This document shows positions 13,686 to 64,000 of a DNA stretch of 64,000 nucleotides, piece after piece (within the stretch, counting starts at the first letter, position 1; every line of letters begins with the position of its first letter). Under the pieces are notes generated by a model. The model was not told the DNA's origin, ran no database searches, and was given only the letters and a program-made list of their open reading frames with translations. The position numbers and the translations under genes were made by a program. This DNA is from Bolinopsis microptera (taxonomy: Eukaryota; Ctenophora; Tentaculata; Lobata; Bolinopsidae): positions 12,387,365 through 12,451,364 of the forward strand of contig NC_087082.1 of the NCBI RefSeq assembly GCF_026151205.1, in the 5' to 3' direction.

Positions 13686-48620
<34,935 letters not shown>

Positions 48621-55332: not shown

Positions 55333-55390
55333 GTTGAGAATCCTCAACTAAGAAAACTAATCGTTGAGAACACTCAACTGAGGTACTTTT
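55333..55390. repeat. bipartite dyad element, copy 1
   Basis: Dyad 1 at 55333 (GTTGAG-AATC-CTCAAC) and dyad 2 at 55363 (GTTGAG-AACA-CTCAAC), 30 bp start to start. The box reads ACTTTTCG (CTTTT at 55386), the only copy with A instead of the first C. See the finding on the whole cluster. Confidence 0.93.
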
Positions 55391-55597
55391 CGCATTCCAC
55401 CAAGATTAATCCAAAACAAAAACGTGCAGATATTGACGATAATTATCGGACACCAAGGTACACAATTCATTACACCAGCTCCAGATAACGTATCAGATCT
55501 CTATAGCTGTGTTACAAAGAACCCAAATACACTGACCATATCATCCATATAGATAAAGGCAAGATTGAGACACTGAAATATATGCCAGATAAATGGT

Positions 55598-55658
55598 GTT
55601 GAGGGTTCTCAACTTGGCGTATGAGAAACATCGAGAACACTCGACTATTGGACCTTTT
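55598..55658. repeat. bipartite dyad element, copy 2
   Basis: Dyad 1 has an unusual centre (GTTGAG-GGTT-CTCAAC). Dyad 2 at 55630 is ATCGAG-AACA-CTCGAC: position 3 co-varies (C with G), position 1 is an A-C mismatch. Step 32 bp; GACCTTTTT box. Confidence 0.92.
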
Positions 55659-56454
55659 TACCCATATATAACAAACCATATAATATAACGACCATTTCAT
55701 AGTAGGAAGCGACACGAGCTTACATAACACGAAAAAGGAAAAATCATAGGTTCCAGCACATCTTTAAAGGCCTCTGCCGATAGTTATAATACATCACAAT
55801 CGATATAGAAAGGTTAAAGATATCTTATTCAAGCCTAAGAGCGTTACGTATATATCATGTTTTCATACACTAATTTGAAACACACTTTCGATCAGAATCG
55901 ACCAACTTCATGATAAGATTCCACAACAAAAGCCCATGCAATTCATTAGAGCACTGCTACAGCTTAGATCAACTGTTAAACAACAAGAACAGAAAACATA
56001 TCAATTCACAAACTGAAAATTACCGGTCAAATTTTAAACAGTTTTAAACGGTTTGTGATATTAGTGCTACAAAAATTCGATGACAAGCATAAGCAGTGCG
56101 TCATGGAACACGTACGAATAATCTAGAAAGAACACTGTTATGCTACATACCGAAATTCTGAGGTTGACTTATTATTACTGGCAAACATAACGTTAATCAA
56201 GAGTTATAATGTCGGCTGGACGTTTTATAGAACAAAGTACAACGAATAGCGTTACTTATAGAGCGGTCACAGACTGGATATAATATATAACAACTGATGC
56301 GATAACATTCTAGAATTTACAAGGGGACCTAACTTCAATCTGAATTTAAAGAAACGATAAAATCACAACTCAACCATACTATTAATGAACAGACGATAAG
56401 ATTAAACAATATATTGATAGCCAAAAATTATATACAAACTATCTAAAGTAGAGT

Positions 56455-56513
56455 GTCGAGAAAACTCGACTAGACGTATAGAGGTGTTGAGAACTCTCAA
56501 CTATTTACCTTTT
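56455..56513. repeat. bipartite dyad element, copy 3
   Basis: Dyad 1 GTCGAG-AAAA-CTCGAC (compensated T3 to C), dyad 2 at 56486 GTTGAG-AACT-CTCAAC, step 31 bp, then TACCTTTTCG. Confidence 0.93.
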
Positions 56514-58079
56514 CGATAAGCGGCTTTATTCGATGTTGCTAGCCGGCCTGCCACTTGCCACTTTCATTCCATGTTGACATGATGTAATATATAGTTGCTC
56601 CGAATTACCACATTTGCCACAATATTCAGCTAGGGTAAATACAACTCTCATAGAAAGGGGTGGTTAAAAGCTAAGATCTCTTTTAAGACCTGCTATCTGC
56701 GAATATAATGATTTGCTACACTTTCGTGCCTTTGCTGCCATGATAAAATAATCATTAGTGCCTGGTGCCTAAAAATAGTTGTGCTTTGCACTTCTGAACG
56801 TCGGCTTTTAGCCTTATAGACGTATCATATTAAATACCGTTTTAAACGGGTTTTATAAGAGCTCATTGAGCCGTGAAGTCGCCAGTGATATACTGACTCG
56901 GCACATTTGTTTAATAAACAATTGATCTATTGAATAGGGCATAGGCACACAGTTTATAAGACGGATTCCTCCGAACAAATCATAGCACAATTAGGTAATT
57001 CAACCATAATTTGCGTCACAGGCAAACAACACTTTCCTCTCTATCAAACCTCTTGCGAACAAATAATGCTTTAACTCTTTGAATTCCGAAGGGAAGGCGA
57101 GGGGTGAGGTGAACTGCGAAGTGATGAGGACTATGATCTGAAGACGTTGATGAGAGAAAGAAACAGGAACTGGACACGATAGGGGTGATTCTATTACTCT
57201 GGTCCTAGAGATCGAGGTGGTTATTATCCCCAAAAGTGGGAATCATTTAACATTTAAACGGCAAATACGTTTACTTTCTTTTCAGGTTAGAAATATATTA
57301 TGGACAAAAGTTCATGCCGTTACCCTGGTTACCATACGCTACCGCTGTGTAGAGCCAAGTACGGGAAAGGAAGCATTAGTTGATGTTATAGTTGATGATA
57401 GTGGTCACTTCACCGTTAGCTAATAACCATTCACATCCAAAGAGGGTACCATCTTTGCTATCTATCTCCGAATCTTGCTTATCTGAAACATCTGTGAACC
57501 CTAACCTTGACCTTTTGATAAAATAACGTCCAGAAATATACACATAGGGAGTTGCCTAGAGTGAGCATCATATTAGAAGAAACAATGATCAAACACTACC
57601 TTACTGTCACCAAATTCACCAGGATTAGCTAGAGGCCAATTGCGGTGGTACCAGTCTTTAAGAAAGGGCTGAGGTACAACTATGAGGTCCAAAGTAAAAC
57701 CAAGGGTCAAAGTCATAGAATGAGAAAGGGATAGAACGGCGAGCGAACAGGAACGATCTGTACTTCTTACCACGACCAACTTTAGAGCCCCGCGTCCGAT
57801 TCCAATTGATATCACCCAATTAAGATAAGCTGAGCATACTGACCGTATCTGCTCGTCAAGGACGTATCTCCCCGCCTTCTACTGCTGGACCCTGTGACTG
57901 AAAAATAACGCCAACTTCCTAAAATAGCGATTATGGTTGCCTTACATCAGAACAGAACGTGCAAACTTTGTACAGAACTTTGAACAGAGGGTGTGAAATC
58001 TTTGAAACCAAACAGAGGTATGAAGAAATGATCACGAACTGGCTTTATACCCATGCCATAGTGACCATATTTACCATGA
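56514..58079. other. spacer between dyad elements 3 and 4, no clear gene
   Basis: Two minus-strand frames (57000-57233, 77 codons; 57573-57815, 80 codons) look vaguely alike, both with Ser/Val/Leu-rich stretches followed by Pro-Phe segments, but similarity is too weak to call paralogues. No domain recognised. Confidence 0.3.
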
Positions 58080-58140
58080 GTTGAGAATACTCAACATTTA
58101 TCATGAATTGATGTTGGGAACGCCCAACTTTTGACCTTTT
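58080..58140. repeat. bipartite dyad element, copy 4
   Basis: Dyad 1 GTTGAG-AATA-CTCAAC. Dyad 2 at 58113 is GTTGGG-AACG-CCCAAC: position 5 changed A to G with the matching T to C on the other arm. Step 33 bp; GACCTTTTC box. Confidence 0.94.
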
Positions 58141-58297
58141 CTGTGGCATATTTACTGCGTTTGCATCTCCGGAAGCAACTGTAAGAGAAAGTGTGGCATT
58201 GTGTGGTTGAATTCAGTGGACTTGAACCTCTTGCTCTGAAATATCAGAAGTGTGGCAAAATAGAACTCCAAGATTGAAGATATATCACCTAATACCG

Positions 58298-58360
58298 GTT
58301 GAGAATCCTCAACTTTACAGATAGACAAAACGTTGAGAACACTCAACTATACAGCCTTTT
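58298..58360. repeat. bipartite dyad element, copy 5
   Basis: Dyads at 58298 (centre AATC) and 58332 (centre AACA), both with consensus arms, step 34 bp; AGCCTTTTT box. Only 218 bp after copy 4. Confidence 0.94.
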
Positions 58361-59257
58361 TGATATATCTCAATACCTGGATTCTTTGAGCTCATGATAT
58401 CAACATCGACATAGCGATGGAAATTAGTGATCGAGCTTTGAATATAATAACACATAAATGTGGTGGTACTTGAACTCACGAATGTCGTGTTATATATTAA
58501 TTGGGGTATAATCATCCCATTTTAAGGCTTACTTGTAGCCATACTTGGGCTCATTTGGCACCATTAATGAATATCACCTTTGAATTGAATTGGATATAGC
58601 GGGGAAACTTGCCGCATAACTCACGAAACTCACAACCCGCAAATGGATCTGCTAGTTTTTCAAACTGCTTTCTGTCTTTTATCTCATTAGTCTATCACTG
58701 GAACAAACCATTTCTGTGGAATTATAGCTTTCAGAATACTGTGGAATACTGGAATAGGTTGATTGTTCTTGGTACGTTCACTTTGACTCAAAATGATGTG
58801 AAAACGATCTGACCTGACTGGATATAAACGATATCTATCTTCGTATGGGATATGGCCATAAACTTGGTTCTGTAATTGCGTGTTTCAACATTTTACACAG
58901 ACAATTACCGATATACCATACAACCTCATTTGCAGCTTAGTTGTAGGACAGCCGGAAGAGAAGTATTTAACAGCTTCCTCCACGGTACATATTCTAGCTT
59001 GTGAATGATAACTTCAGATGAGTGTGTAATAGACTCTCACTTCAAGTGACATCACCCAGCAACAGAGGATGACTGAAGAACTTGTGAGGGGCAAGGAACT
59101 GAAAAGAGGTTAGAAGAAAAATGCGACAAATCGAATGGGCTTCTGAATCAATGACACAATAACTATGAACTGCAATCTGAACGAAAACACAGCACTGAAT
59201 TCATTATGTGCTGTACAGAACTGGTTGACTACAGGGTTCTTTTTTCTACAACTGAGA

Positions 59258-59318
59258 GTTGAGAATACTCAACTAGAATAATTGAGGTTGTTGAGAAATC
59301 TCAACTAAGGAACCTTTT
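59258..59318. repeat. bipartite dyad element, copy 6
   Basis: Dyads at 59258 (AATA) and 59290 (centre AAAT), consensus arms, step 32 bp; AACCTTTTC box. Confidence 0.94.
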
Positions 59319-59640
59319 CACAGGAATTCCTGTTAAATATTGCTACCATATCATATCCACCCAAGGAGTAAAAGCTTCAAATTGCATAGTCTATCATATA
59401 TATGTATATACATATTTATATACGACACAGTTCCTATAGGTTGGGATTTTAACATAGTTCTATCAGAATCAGCAAGAGTTCTATCTGACTGGGTTGAAGT
59501 GTACAGGAAGAGAATACAGATAATTACATGAAGTTCATAAAACACATTGTCCTGAATAATTAGGGCCTGCCAAGGACAAATCAGTTCGTGAGAGGTGCTC
59601 CAAGCAAGTGTAGATTGGCTGATATTATGTTGACTGAAAT

Positions 59641-59702
59641 GTCGAGAATGCTCGACTGAAAGTGTTAAACTATGTTGAGGACACTCAACTGAAATACCTT
59701 TT
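59641..59702. repeat. bipartite dyad element, copy 7
   Basis: Dyad 1 GTCGAG-AATG-CTCGAC (compensated), dyad 2 at 59674 GTTGAG-GACA-CTCAAC, step 33 bp; TACCTTTTG box. Confidence 0.94.
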
Positions 59703-60266
59703 GTGCGATGGCGCATTTGCCTCGGTGCTGTTATGGCTGTAGTGGAGAGGGCGGCACACGCAGACGGCGTTATCGCTTTTTGGCTTCCAAATTTATCACG
59801 ATGAAAGGAAGGCTAAGTGTCGGCATAGCGTAAAGGTGTGGCGCTCAGGGATTGTGTCGGCAGCGAACCTTAAATCCTTCAGTGTACAGCAAGAATTGCG
59901 TGCACTGAAATGTGAGTGTGGCTGAGTTATGCCAATCATGAACAGCCATATTCTCGTCATAACACCCAAAAAAGAGGCAAGAGTAGATCAAAACTCAACA
60001 TAAGGAACATAATGTAGATCATTGAAAATAGAAGACAGACCCTATTACCGACAAACCTATCAGTCCTGACAAAGAGGATGTAACCTGACTCGAAACGTGG
60101 GACTGTGATCTGTTATCTGAGACATAGCAAGGACTTCACGTTATCGGGGGATGTGCGGATATCACGTGGGTTGCGGGGTACCGGTACCGTCGTGTACTAG
60201 AATCAAACTGCAAGGACTCAAACTAAGCAGGCATGCTCTGAGGTCAGCTCTGGTCAGCAAGACTGT
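59703..60266. other. spacer between dyad elements 7 and 8, no gene seen
   Basis: Less AT-rich than average, with no open frame of note. Confidence 0.35.
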
Positions 60267-60330
60267 GCCGAGAATACTCAGCTAAAGGTTATGGATTGTT
60301 GTTGAGAATTCTCAACTAGGGAGGCCTTTT
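60267..60330. repeat. bipartite dyad element, copy 8
   Basis: Dyad 1 GCCGAG-AATA-CTCAGC: position 2 is compensated (C with G), position 3 is a C-A mismatch. Dyad 2 at 60301 GTTGAG-AATT-CTCAAC, step 34 bp; GGCCTTTTCG box. Confidence 0.9.
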
Positions 60331-60452
60331 CGACGGTACCGTACATGAACCGGCAATAACATAACATAGCAACGTAGCACAGAATCCGCGTAACATCACA
60401 ACGTCGACAGTAACATGTTCTCGGCGCCAAGAAGACACGGTGACAGGCTGAG

Positions 60453-60519
60453 GTTGAGAATTCTCAACTCGTTGTTAAATTGAAAATATTGAGAATGCTC
60501 AATAAATGACAGGCCTTTT
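60453..60519. repeat. bipartite dyad element, copy 9
   Basis: Dyad 1 GTTGAG-AATT-CTCAAC. Dyad 2 at 60488 is ATTGAG-AATG-CTCAAT: position 1 compensated (A with T). Step 35 bp, the longest; GGCCTTTTT box. Confidence 0.92.
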
Positions 60520-60674
60520 TATTTTCTTATCATCATTATATATCATCGTAGTATGGATACTCGCTGCGCTGGCGGTTATTCGTGCGTCGTTCTCAACGGT
60601 CACGCGTAAGATTTGGTCACTGCATACTGTCGCCTCCCTCTGTATAGCGCACATCTCATTTTCTCTCCGGACTG

Positions 60675-60740
60675 GTTGAGAATACTCAACTTAGGTTGGT
60701 AGAATTCGTTGAGAACACTCAACATAGCACTTTACCTTTT
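60675..60740. repeat. bipartite dyad element, copy 10
   Basis: Dyads at 60675 (AATA) and 60708 (AACA), consensus arms, step 33 bp; the box TACCTTTTCG follows 12 bp after dyad 2, the longest gap of the canonical copies. Confidence 0.94.
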
Positions 60741-60856
60741 CGATGTTACTATTTGATAACTTCTCCTCGCTCTATTCGCTCTCCTCGCAATTGTACAGCT
60801 AAGATCCGTGGCTCCCCCTCGCTAGCTCTACGTAGATTTCCCCTCTTCCGTACTTC

Positions 60857-60918
60857 GTCGAGAATACTCAACTGTATTTGATAAAGTGTTGAGAACACTC
60901 AACTGTTTGTTACCTTTT
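60857..60918. repeat. bipartite dyad element, copy 11
   Basis: Dyad 1 GTCGAG-AATA-CTCAAC with a C-A mismatch at position 3; dyad 2 at 60888 consensus with AACA. Step 31 bp; TACCTTTTC box. Only 182 bp after copy 10. Confidence 0.93.
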
Positions 60919-61878
60919 CATTCCCAGCAAGTTGCTATTACCGTACCGGACTCCCACTTTCTCGCTTGTTCTCTCAAAGCACATCCCTCCTGTTCGCGTT
61001 CAGTAGGCGTTTAACCCCCAAATTTTAGAGTCTGCTGCAATCCGGTTGCAGGTTAGGCACTTCCTCATCCTCCTCCCAGTCGACCTCTTCCCAGAGAAAT
61101 TATCTCAACCTGTATGTACATAAGTTATCAGTTTTGATAACTTAAGCCTCCAAAATTATCGGGGCCTCCCTTCAAACACATAGAAAACACACTATGCTAT
61201 TTTATACCACCATCATTTTCCTGTAAACCTACATCAAAGACTTTTCAAACCTTAATACCCACTGTTTACCCGTTCACCATTCAAGCTCAAGATCTAGAAT
61301 AACGTTTACTCTGCTTAAAGTGTCAGGCATAACTCAGAGCAAATATCTTCACCAGATGTTTGAGACAAACTGTATCCCTGCTAGACTTCTCTTGCAAGAC
61401 TGGATTCTGGCGTTGTTCACAGCTCTAGATACTGCTCCGACTTGGTGTTCACGAGGTTACACTGGCACGATCAAAGCTGCGTTTTCAGCGTGGACATCAA
61501 GCATATATCAGCTGTGATGGTGATGTTAGTGGGCAAACCGCCCACTCAAAATATCTATATCACATATAATTCATTTTAGTATTACCGAGCCATCAGTTGC
61601 TCATACTTAGTCAGGTATGCTTACAGTACAAGGTCAGGATTATCATGCTCAACTACTTGGAGGCCCAATATGATTGAGGACACATTATGGTACCTGTACC
61701 AGAAGATTCGAAGAGATAAGTTTCAGGGTGATCGGGGTCAGCCAGGCCGAGGGTGAATGAGGTTGTAACACACAGCATCTCAGCTCTGAAGTACCGATAT
61801 CTCAGCTAGCAAACACACGCGGGCAGGAGTACCTCTTCTCACTCTGACGTCCTCTTCAGTGACGCCCTCTTCATTCAC
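60919..61878. other. spacer between dyad elements 11 and 12, no clear gene
   Basis: Pyrimidine-rich start. A 65-codon frame at 61320-61517 (plus strand) has no recognisable feature. Confidence 0.35.
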
Positions 61879-61939
61879 GTCGAGAACACTCGACTGTATC
61901 TGTTGAGGGGTGTTGAGGTTTCTCAACTTGCTTCCTTTT
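61879..61939. repeat. bipartite dyad element, copy 12
   Basis: Dyad 1 GTCGAG-AACA-CTCGAC (compensated, and with the centre normally seen in dyad 2). Dyad 2 at 61912 GTTGAG-GTTT-CTCAAC. Step 33 bp; TTCCTTTTG box. Confidence 0.92.
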
Positions 61940-63268
61940 GTTTTACATGGGAATGGCCATGTTTGCGCAGTTCACGCAAAGGTAGTTACGAGAAAGCGTA
62001 ACTTTCAAAACAGCGCTGCCGAGTAGCCACCAAGCGAGGACGAACAAAACGTCAGTCAAACGAACTCCTTATCCTTCTACGACGCGTTATATAACTCAGG
62101 TCACGTTTGTGAAGCCGGAAACGTACGAGTAGGTAGACGCGGACGGTCCCGTTAGAGGGCTGGAAATTTATCAAGGGAACCTCGGAAAGATACATCAAGA
62201 CGGGCAAGACTGTTGTTTTCACGATGAGCTTCCATCTGTAATACAAAAACCATTCAGACATTTAATTTTCAGTTAAATTAGGGAAATTAGACAAAATTTT
62301 ATTATTCTTATATTAGTAGTATTACACGTTATTCAAGAAGACATGGTCCGGTAATTAATGAACTAGTTCTACCTGAAAAAACAGCTCATCAGACAACCAC
62401 ATCACCCTCTAGGTTTAAGAGATAACAGACTTTAGAGTGTGGCCATTGAAGCGGTACGCGAGGGATCTCTCACTCTCTCTCTCTTGCAGCTCATTAGTCG
62501 ACACTCGTTGTTGAACCTACATACTGTTAAGAACCTGCTCTCTGCAAAGTTCGTGGAGCAAAACACTGAGTGGAGCTGTCGGGACGTGTACATGTTACAT
62601 TCTCCTCATGTCTCGTGCAACGAACGTGTCCGTGTTGACTGTCAGCCTTCAGCTCTCGGATCACACATCACGCACGCCTGTATGCTGTGAAAATATGTAC
62701 ACTGTACAGAGAACAAAACAAAGGAATGAGGTGGCCACTATTTCACTGCCAGCGTGTATTAACATTGTGTGATCATATCATGTCAACGTGAAATAATGCA
62801 TCAGAAAATAATTAGGTCAACGTGATTAAATTGTCCTGACATGTTGATATAAATGCATGTCACATTCTCACACAGTTTTGTTAACTATTAAGTTCACTAA
62901 CTGAATAATAGCATTGCGAAACTTACAGTTTCCGCAGAAGCCGCTTGTACAGTGTACACAGGGTATAGGGGTTAAGAGGACTGTCAGATGTCTCTAAATG
63001 TAGGAATTCTCAGTTCGTCTCTTGTGTCACCTCTGCACTCCTCTTCTCTTTTCTCTCTCCAGCTCCCGTCTCTTCAGTTGTTCCTCCAGCTCCCGTCTCT
63101 TTGTTCGTAATTCTGTACTCCACATTCCTCTCCCAGCTCACTTCGTTTATCTAACCCTACCAGCTCTCACATCACTGCTCCTAAGTCGTGTACTGTCTCC
63201 ATCACATCAAGATCACACTCCTACTCGCTTGCGTACCTGCAATCTGCATCCTCAATCTCCTCCTGGTC
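61940..63268. other. spacer between dyad elements 12 and 13, no clear gene
   Basis: Contains a CT-rich tract (about 63015-63150) over which a 114-codon frame is open. An 83-codon frame at 62439-62690 is unrecognised. Confidence 0.35.
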
Positions 63269-63556
63269 ATGTCGTCGAGTCTCACCGTACCAGCCAATAT
63301 CTTACACCACCAGTCACGTCAGAAACCAAGTCTGTCAAGCAGGAGAGACTCTCACCGGGTCGTTAGAACACTTGTCAGTCAGATCTCGCACAATGTAGCT
63401 GAGTCAGCAGTCAGATCAGGGAAGGTTCAGCACGTAACGCTATTAGGGGGGTCTCTGCACGATCTTAACTATGCTCCGGAGACACGAACTCTAGTTAACC
63501 TGTTAGCACCACAAATAACTTTCACATCTTACTATGATACCGACTCTAAAATCTAA
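63269..63556 (+). CDS. possible small protein, unrecognised
   Basis: 95-codon frame from the ATG at 63269 (the frame is open from further upstream). It is Ser/Arg-rich at the start and more protein-like later (SGKVQHVTLLGG, TRTLVNLLAPQ). No signal peptide, domain or family recognised, and no neighbouring gene supports it. May be chance or one exon of a gene. Confidence 0.2.
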   Translation: MSSSLTVPANILHHQSRQKPSLSSRRDSHRVVRTLVSQISHNVAESAVRSGKVQHVTLLGGSLHDLNYAPETRTLVNLLAPQITFTSYYDTDSKI

Positions 63557-63685
63557 AATTGATCATAGTGCGAGATGGTTGCAGGGTTTTTAACACTTAG
63601 ATAAAATAAGAGAAACACGAATTACACGCTTACGTTTGTCAAGGTGACCGTAGAGCTTGTGAGACTGGGTGTCCATGAGTTGACT

Positions 63686-63781
63686 GTTGAGAATCCTCAA
63701 CTAGCAGTTATCAGGGTTGTCGAGAACTCTCGACTTGTCACCGGGAAACTGGGAACAGTCCCGAGTACAAACGGTCCTTTT
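63686..63781. repeat. bipartite dyad element, copy 13 (variant with a third hairpin)
   Basis: Dyad 1 GTTGAG-AATC-CTCAAC; dyad 2 at 63719 GTCGAG-AACT-CTCGAC (compensated), step 33 bp. Instead of the box within 12 bp, a third inverted repeat follows (63742-63763: CGGG, bulge AA, ACTG, loop GGAA, CAGT, CCCG), and TCCTTTTC comes only 13 bp after that. Confidence 0.85.
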
Positions 63782-64000
63782 CTTTATTTTTCATCACTTA
63801 TCTCGGGGAGACCGGGAAACCTCCGTCAAAACTGTAACTAACAACACCGAGGTAACGCTAGTCGCTATCAGGCGGGCAGGGACTGCACGGGGCACAACCT
63901 GTTGCCCTGTAATGGGGAATTTTGTGTCAGTCTTACCGACTAACGACCAAAGTTTTAAACAGTAAAATTTACGGACAAGAAATTTGCGTGAAAATGGCCA

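Follow-up and report, generated by a model that had tools for sequence, protein, structure and literature searches.

A 27-module hairpin array in the genome of the ctenophore Bolinopsis microptera as a candidate protein-binding non-coding RNA

The histone mRNA 3' stem-loop comprises a 6-bp stem and a 4-nt loop within 16 nt and has a purine-rich partner box, integron attC arrays consist of palindromic sites in one orientation with unrelated stretches between them, and the repeats of Xist are clustered in one region. The non-coding RNA NORAD is described as having at least 12 repeated units of short motifs and short stem-loops, and as binding Pumilio many times (PMC4947167). The account of Xist and Spen describes a structural signal, bound by RRMs, that is shared by the A-repeat of this host non-coding RNA and by ERV RNAs (PMC7282817). 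The array described here resembles NORAD in that many repeats of a motif and stem-loop, 27 modules in all, lie on one strand. Unlike NORAD, in whose units sequence outside the motifs is also kept and the Pumilio sites UGURUAUA are present (PMC4947167), the array keeps nothing outside a box and its hairpins, and is known here from genomic sequence alone.

The array consists of 27 elements across 19 kb on contig C11 of Bolinopsis microptera, from position 55,333 to about 74,160 in the numbering of the window (the whole 64,000-nt stretch of DNA analysed), and extends up to about 12461524 on C11; a SPAG1-like gene is its neighbour. The 13 elements of the initial annotation were all recovered and form the first half of the array; 14 more lie beyond the window, where the array was followed in adjoining sequence (L026/L027; 103.6-kb stretch examined). 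The observation is therefore real and larger than first reported, and the single orientation noted for the 13 extends to 27/27. Within the window, the dyads of an element start 30-35 bp apart, CTTTT follows dyad 2 by 7-12 bp in 12 of the 13 elements (42 bp in the thirteenth), and CCTTTT is found in 11 of these 12, element 1 being the sole one without CC (Table 1). Spacing is irregular, 182-1,807 bp start to start, and no two-dyad element was seen at 1-55,000, again as first described. The spacers are without mutual similarity, and the 60-nt flanks have an identity of 0.25-0.26 versus 0.27 for random stretches, supporting the earlier proposal that sites are kept in place while the sequence around them is lost. 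Copies aligning together with their flanks were not seen, and an interpretation of the array as a transposon family or tandem satellite was rejected, as its copies do not align beyond the motif.

Table 1. Array elements inside the window (window numbering)
Feature	Position	Strand	Components
Element 1	55333..55391	-	dyad 1 55333-55348, dyad 2 55363-55378, box CTTTT 55386-55390
Element 2	55598..55659	-	dyads 55598, 55630; box 55654; dyad 2: minus-strand G-U
Element 3	56455..56514	-	dyads 56455, 56486; box 56509
Element 4	58080..58141	-	dyads 58080, 58113; box 58136; two-sided change GTTGGG/CCCAAC in dyad at 58113
Element 5	58298..58361	-	dyads 58298, 58332; box 58356
Element 6	59258..59319	-	dyads 59258, 59290; box 59314
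Element 7	59641..59703	-	dyads 59641, 59674; box 59698
Element 8	60267..60331	-	dyads 60267 (minus-strand G-U), 60301; box 60326
Element 9	60453..60520	-	dyads 60453, 60488; box 60515; two-sided change ATTGAG/CTCAAT in dyad at 60488
Element 10	60675..60741	-	dyads 60675, 60708; box 60736
Element 11	60857..60919	-	dyads 60857 (minus-strand G-U), 60888; box 60914
Element 12	61879..61940	-	dyads 61879, 61912; box 61935
Element 13	63686..63782	-	dyads 63686, 63719; CTTTT at 63777
Array, part inside window	55333..64000	-	continues past the window

Both dyads and the box are present in 21 of the 27 elements, and dyad 2 and the box only in the other six, giving 48 hairpins. Two candidates were left out of this count, one matching weakly at box 77082 and a dyad at 65108 that pairs well but has no box. 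Read on the minus strand, the module starts with 5'-GAAAAGG, which is followed after 6-13 nt (41 in one) by a short, 6-bp hairpin with a loop that is mostly NGUU (NGTT in 20/27 dyads 2) and, in 21 modules, by a second 6-bp hairpin, usually 14-28 nt further on (5 in one), with a loop that is mostly NAUU (NATT in 16/21 dyads 1). CTTTT is preceded by C in 26/27 elements; its presence in 27/27 is partly by construction, as a nearby CTTTT was a selection criterion beyond the window. Box and loops are asymmetric and largely kept across the array, and a comparison of the elements reveals little information outside box and hairpins. A k-mer search of the spacers found ATTTCAG 11 times versus 2.0 expected, without a constant position with respect to the box.

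These elements are not expected by chance. From base composition, about 0.003 occurrences of GTTGAGNNNNCTCAAC are expected per 64 kb. Exact matches to GTYGAGNNNNCTCRAC are found at 22 of the 26 element dyads in the window, and these 26 dyads account for all but two of the 28 window sites within two mismatches; positions 1-55,000 hold two single sites with two mismatches (9218 and 51003). A lone paired site near CTTTT, at 36,201 in the reverse-strand numbering of the 103.6-kb stretch, consequently lies beyond the window. The genome-wide pattern search called for at the outset, using the minus-sense AAAAGGN{5,17}RYYGAGNRTTCTCRRY on 264.65 Mb, returned 22 matches, 19 of them in the array, versus none for the reversed control, and relaxed patterns returned 59 versus 3 and 76 versus 3. 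A covariance model was limited to eight equal-length modules, five of them from the array, because MAFFT did not keep the box in register when aligning across it; in 104 kb it had 22 matches at E <= 0.015, 21 on the array minus strand and one on the plus strand at a known element. None of 4227 Rfam 15 families reached gathering level in the window or L026/L027, the sole sub-threshold hit in 55-64 kb being snoR99 (E 0.43, 62791-62897), and no description of the module was found in open-licence papers, in queries that did not include the motif letters themselves.

The stems covary. In 19 of the 21 double elements, 228/228 cells are paired and two-sided changes occur at 7 of 12 pairs; the two-sided cells number 14 versus 1.8 in shuffles, with 0/500 shuffles as high. 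Similarly, 37 of the 48 hairpins (27 distinct) have 162/162 cells paired and two-sided changes at 5 of 6 pairs, and the stem at 67745 has been replaced whole (CCTGGG/CCCAGG). Complete pairing is partly by construction, as hairpins were chosen partly for pairing, which does not apply to the two-sided changes. Counting further pair types, as a structure control, gave no support for structure (68/500 shuffles as high). A bistable long hairpin over both dyads was chosen by several minimum-energy folds, yet was rejected, as pairing of arms between the two dyads has no two-sided cells. With G-U allowed, pairing is complete for 48/48 hairpins on the minus strand and 44/48 on the plus strand, and the best of 20,000 arm shuffles had 41 fully paired hairpins. 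Within the array, each of the four one-sided changes gives a G-U pair on the minus strand but not on the plus strand (two-sided sign test, p 0.125); outside the array such changes are of mixed polarity, two G-U in the sense direction and two A-C against it, and by folding energy the plus strand comes out slightly ahead (-17.1 versus -16.1 on minus). The minus strand is likely the RNA strand. Taken together, two-sided stem changes, the kept box and loops and the minus-only G-U pairs indicate selection on RNA structure and not on a DNA dyad, a reading that is well supported by these patterns and agrees with the repeated RNA double hairpin among the initial suggestions, the interpretation as a whole being partly supported.

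Such a structure could be a protein-binding RNA module of which a long non-coding RNA contains many copies, a reading that we hold tentatively and at somewhat less than even chance. The minus strand of the array would be transcribed as a non-coding RNA of about 19 kb, an RNA-binding protein would recognise the box and the loops on their short stems, and the transcript would thus present 27 modules (48 hairpins) to this candidate protein, as a sponge or scaffold. A speculative partner is the RRM/RS protein encoded by a gene that we modelled at C9:3,763,787-3,768,427, or a relative, proposed because two single-hairpin modules sit in its intron 3 in the sense orientation; this link is positional and was found after the fact. 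Splicing factors often carry autoregulatory sites in their own introns. The C9 RRM had no match in the protein database searched. Among solved structures SPEN ranks first (whole-sequence E 1e-6), a score that sums weak matches, none of them strong enough to reach the cut-off alone, and the RRMs of SR proteins do reach it by themselves (E 1.2e-5 to 1.5e-4), so that kinship with SPEN is not established. We do not claim that the C9 modules mark a poison exon: in-frame stops are present, but among the donors of the intron this one ranks 19th. GAAAAGG as a splice donor was likewise rejected, its last G being followed by T in only 16/27.

The module recurs elsewhere in the genome with other stems, as AAAAGG-AGTGAG/CTCACT-GAAGAG/CTCTTC and, twice, as AAAAGG-GGAGAG/CTCTCC; the two modules in the C9 intron belong with these. 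In the L083 family (nine matches, eight with the module, no Rfam match) it forms the end of a conserved stretch of ~240 nt that is predicted to fold stably (z -2.76, 2/200 shuffles as low). A tandem array on C3 also carries the module, and copies in the C3 arrays align beyond the motif; in the second C3 block the full 6-bp stem is missing in 9 of 10 pattern hits. The copies of the repeat TE1, unlike the elements of the C11 array, align beyond the motif and have two hairpins 12 nt apart, GTTGAG with loop NATT and GTCGAG with loop TACT, which lie downstream of a reverse-transcriptase frame in two loci (RVT_1, E 1.4e-8 and 1.7e-8), the frame at L036 ending about 150 nt before them. The dispersed repeat TE2 has GTTGAG-NATT-CTCAAC plus GTGGG-AACT-CCCAC, and two more unclassified dispersed families (17 and 10 hits) have AAAAGG-13 nt-GTCGAG/CTCGAC. 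Genome-wide counting of single dyads was set aside as misleading (278 sites versus 8 control); among 23 inspected sites outside arrays (L001-L004, L053-L071, with L059 much diverged), all but L064 were TE1 or TE2 by eye. On viral contigs, two TTGAG dyads occur at 21 loci, of which L011 and L021 were inspected. Genuine histone stem-loops are found elsewhere (RF00032, seven matches at C5:1.77-1.96 Mb, two over the cut-off), the window and L026/L027 have no gathering match, 55-64 kb gave nothing at E <= 1, and the histone purine box is on the opposite side from the array box, so identity with this element was rejected. The ctenophore chromatin-loop motif was likewise rejected as a different signal, being reported as GC-rich (PMC12221973).

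That modules are found in repeats counts against the RNA reading, as it also fits a mobile-element origin. It is unlikely, in our estimate, that the module is a signal recognised by a protein of a retroelement, such as a reverse transcriptase, and carried also by hitch-hikers, the array being a decoy or an old by-product. The position of the TE1 hairpins, the TE2 hairpin and the boxed hairpins of the two unclassified families favour this idea, but none of the 60 BLAST rows for the compared repeat loci falls in 54.9-75 kb, which covers the array, and no AAAAGG box was seen by the TE1 or TE2 hairpins in the copies inspected. Moreover, the mutually unrelated flanks of the array elements indicate that these are not 27 retrocopies. 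Many small RNA genes, each element being the 3' domain or processing signal of its own short transcript with a variable upstream part, would suit the irregular spacing and the L083 segment that a module closes, yet they are unlikely: no common upstream motif was found at a fixed place, with neighbours starting as little as 182 bp apart there is scant room for promoter and gene, and there is no Rfam match.

Hairpins acting at the DNA level, as cruciforms or single strands, in recombination, replication or protein docking, would covary too, and their one orientation, irregular spacing and unrelated intervals resemble an attC-like cassette array. Unlike attC arrays, there are no long reading frames between the sites; frames in 55-75 kb, compared by length, are short, the longest stop-to-stop being 153 aa. 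A piece of about 700 bp moved from 66948-67637 to C7, 96% identical and the single informative case of exchange, breaks outside the elements, which weighs weakly against the recombination signal suggested initially, and the module pair in the putative C9 intron lies in its sense direction. We thus regard this explanation as quite unlikely. The other initial suggestion, dyad-symmetric sites for a dimeric DNA-binding protein, is consistent with near-perfect palindromes and with a distance in the window of about three helical turns, but appears very improbable, as half-sites change with their own partner arm (14 two-sided cells versus 0 across dyads), box and loops lack symmetry, and whole stems are swapped (at 67745, and AGTGAG and GGAGAG elsewhere) with the centre largely kept, the opposite of a half-site code.

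Returning to a protein-binding RNA module, its wider form would be an undescribed ctenophore RNA code, in which AAAAGG and 6-bp hairpins with NRYU loops are common to a 19-kb, 27-module non-coding RNA, mobile elements and an RRM/RS intron, and are read by the RRM/RS protein; this we consider doubtful, the more so as the SPEN match is summed from weak ones and a reverse transcriptase is in the expected place in only one of four repeat families. Any likeness to Xist and Spen would lie in TE1, with its reverse-transcriptase frame, having an array-like stem and NATT loop with no box seen (compared as DNA), in box and hairpin occurring in two unclassified dispersed families, known from genomic DNA, and in SPEN heading the solved relatives of the C9 RRM, via summed weak matches.

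MicroRNAs have been reported absent in ctenophores, and a module that proved to be an RNA signal would represent a new structured RNA family in a phylum reportedly without them (PMC6211395). The array is an unusually clean natural experiment, with dozens of covarying hairpins and all else randomised, so that the recognition rule can already be seen, and could serve to fish for the protein. An RNA signal of this kind would also be relevant to the question of how mobile elements and the non-coding RNAs of their hosts come to have signals in common. Should the RNA code prove true, it would be an independent counterpart of the Spen-retroelement-Xist triangle, in a sister lineage of other animals.

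The thirteen two-dyad elements claimed in the initial annotation were confirmed in position by direct reading of the window, which spans C11:12387365-12451364, and reading 40 kb beyond it shows that the array runs on to ~74,160 (window numbering), giving a total of 27 elements in 18.8 kb, a count that leaves out 65108, a dyad lacking the box, and 77082, where the match is weak. Both dyads are present in 21 of these elements, the other six having dyad 2 and the box only, and over the full 103.6 kb read the other strand holds a single element match. The CTTTT box, whose presence is part of the search criterion for elements beyond the window, is preceded by C in 26/27 elements and followed by C in 21/27; outside the elements, alignment columns carry at most about 0.3 bits, and no mutual similarity was found among the array spacers (113-2,509 bp). 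The acceptor-like ATTTCAG occurs 11 times in these spacers (55,000-75,000, minus strand) vs 2.0 expected, at no fixed distance to the elements.

The array dyads are a pairing signal. Their stems vary (GTTGAG, GTCGAG, GCTGAG, ATTGAG, GATGAG, GTTGGG, GTTGAA, CCTGGG), and the opposite arm changes to match. Two-sided changes occupy 14 cells, compared with 1.8 in shuffles, in 19 of the 21 double elements (the other two, whose gaps are unusual, are omitted), and 16 cells, compared with 2.8, in 37 of the 48 array hairpins, a set omitting ten dyad-1 rows and one hairpin that crosses a locus border. The count of further pair types in the 19 double elements was not exceptional (68/500). Judged from sequence, the reading of the array elements as RNA structure is well supported. 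The minus-strand loop is NATT in 16/21 copies of dyad 1 and NGTT in 20/27 of dyad 2, the loops thus being unlike between dyads; their general rule is N-R-Y-U. When dyad 1 was paired with dyad 2 instead, no cell held a two-sided change. Four of the 48 array hairpins carry a one-sided stem change, and minus-strand RNA is favoured because all four are G-U on the minus strand and C-A on the plus strand, four cases giving only p = 0.125; the G-U polarity of modules elsewhere in the genome is mixed.

The AAAAGG-hairpin module recurs in the genome. The pattern with the stem found in the window has 22 matches vs 0 in the reversed-pattern control: 19 in this array, two on contig C9, and one on C7, where 700 bp of the array recur with 96% identity and no target duplication is apparent by eye. 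When the stem is relaxed, the matches number 59 vs 3, distributed as 20 in this array, one on C7, two on C9, eight with AGTGAG/CTCACT, one with GGTGAG/CTCACC, and 17 and 10 in a pair of dispersed families. With no constraint on the three outer pairs, the count is 76 vs 3, including 14 on C3 and two on C6, with 20 of the 76 lying outside every family followed. The GGTGAG module on C4 is followed by GGTAACCT tandem repeats, which score sub-threshold for miRNA families.

Coordinates of the array, module and window features
Feature	Location	Loci	Remarks
Elements lacking dyad 1	65408, 66695, 68823, 72136, 73624, 74128		window numbering
Array piece copied to C7	C7:1555031-1555730	L045-L046	source 66948-67637 (window numbering), two elements
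Two AAAAGG-hairpin modules	C9:3765384, C9:3765491 (span C9:3765384-3765520)	L052	107 bp apart; intron 3 of modelled gene, sense
RRM/RS gene	C9:3763787-3768427		modelled by eye; RRM then RS-rich exons; 3' end open
AGTGAG family	C1:342 kb, C11:4764 kb, C10:8569 kb	L083, L086, L087	also C4:14400 kb, C11:6938 kb
C3 tandem blocks	C3:719468-725733	L089, L090	14 AAAAGG-hairpin pattern matches; periods 146 bp and about 91 bp
Single module	C4:11494434	L088	GGTGAG-AACC-CTCACC
Two single-hairpin modules	C6:9350011, C6:9350370	L091	359 bp apart; AGAGAG/CTCTCT and GGAGAG/CTCTCT
Dispersed repeats		L001-L004, L030-L044, L053-L071	one or two GTTGAG/GTCGAG hairpins
Two adjoining carboxylesterase ORFs	36357-41020		second carries ShK domain

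The AGTGAG family is a small set of structured repeats, about 240 nt in length, with an AAAAGG two-hairpin module at their end, and it repeats the whole design of the array: AAAAGG, 6 nt, an AGTGAG/CTCACT hairpin (loop UGCU, UGUU, UACU or CACU), 17 nt, and a GAAGAG/CTCTTC hairpin (loop AACU or GAUU), the second stem being broken in 2/6 aligned copies. Its segment has nine genome matches, one a 53-nt piece that lacks the module, and no Rfam match was found in L083, L086 or L087. The unit of the first C3 block reads AAAAGG, 8 nt, GGAGAG-UAUU-CUCUCC, 25 nt, GGAGAG-UAUU-CUCUCC, with hairpin one intact in 4/4 units and hairpin two in 3/4; in the second block, the full 6-bp stem is missing in 9/10 pattern matches.

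The intron hosting the C9 modules is 2,264 bp long, and the first module overlaps a splice-acceptor-like tract. The RRM of the modelled gene matches Pfam RRM_1 (E 4.1e-7); SPEN ranks top among its solved relatives (E 1e-6), but only by summing weak matches, and SR-protein RRMs match it on their own (E 1.2e-5 to 1.5e-4). Protein searches with this RRM found no match, and the gene model is therefore unconfirmed. Splicing factors commonly regulate themselves through their own introns, and for this reason the predicted RRM/RS protein is the leading, if weakly supported, candidate partner of the module.

Similar hairpins occur in dispersed repeats. TE1 has one with the array-type NAUU loop and a second with UACU, and in L036 and L038 these lie downstream of a reverse-transcriptase frame. 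The hairpins of TE2 form a similar pair; near two TE2 copies there are retroelement frames, but these sit at the opposite side of the hairpin. Two dispersed families with box and GTCGAG hairpin gave no Pfam match in the one frame tested and are unclassified. The likeness of these repeats to the array may reflect either a common protein or a common origin; the repeat loci compared with the array have no match inside it.

Right of the array, the minus strand carries a TPR gene resembling SPAG1 (E 2.8e-15), and left of the array, a plus-strand frame around 45 kb looked by eye like a LAP/Scribble-type candidate, an identity that no search confirmed. Further left, the second carboxylesterase ORF (39101-41017) is covered over 87% of its length, at 100% identity, by an annotated Bolinopsis microptera protein of 1,075 aa, and 29,719-32,223 holds 2.5 kb of strongly strand-skewed repeats of GAGGAGGACTGAG type. 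Reading frames in the array are short (longest 153 aa). Module and array are placed in no known family; by analogy with NORAD and the Xist A-repeat, their architecture suggests that a selected RNA module may build a 19-kb multivalent non-coding RNA.
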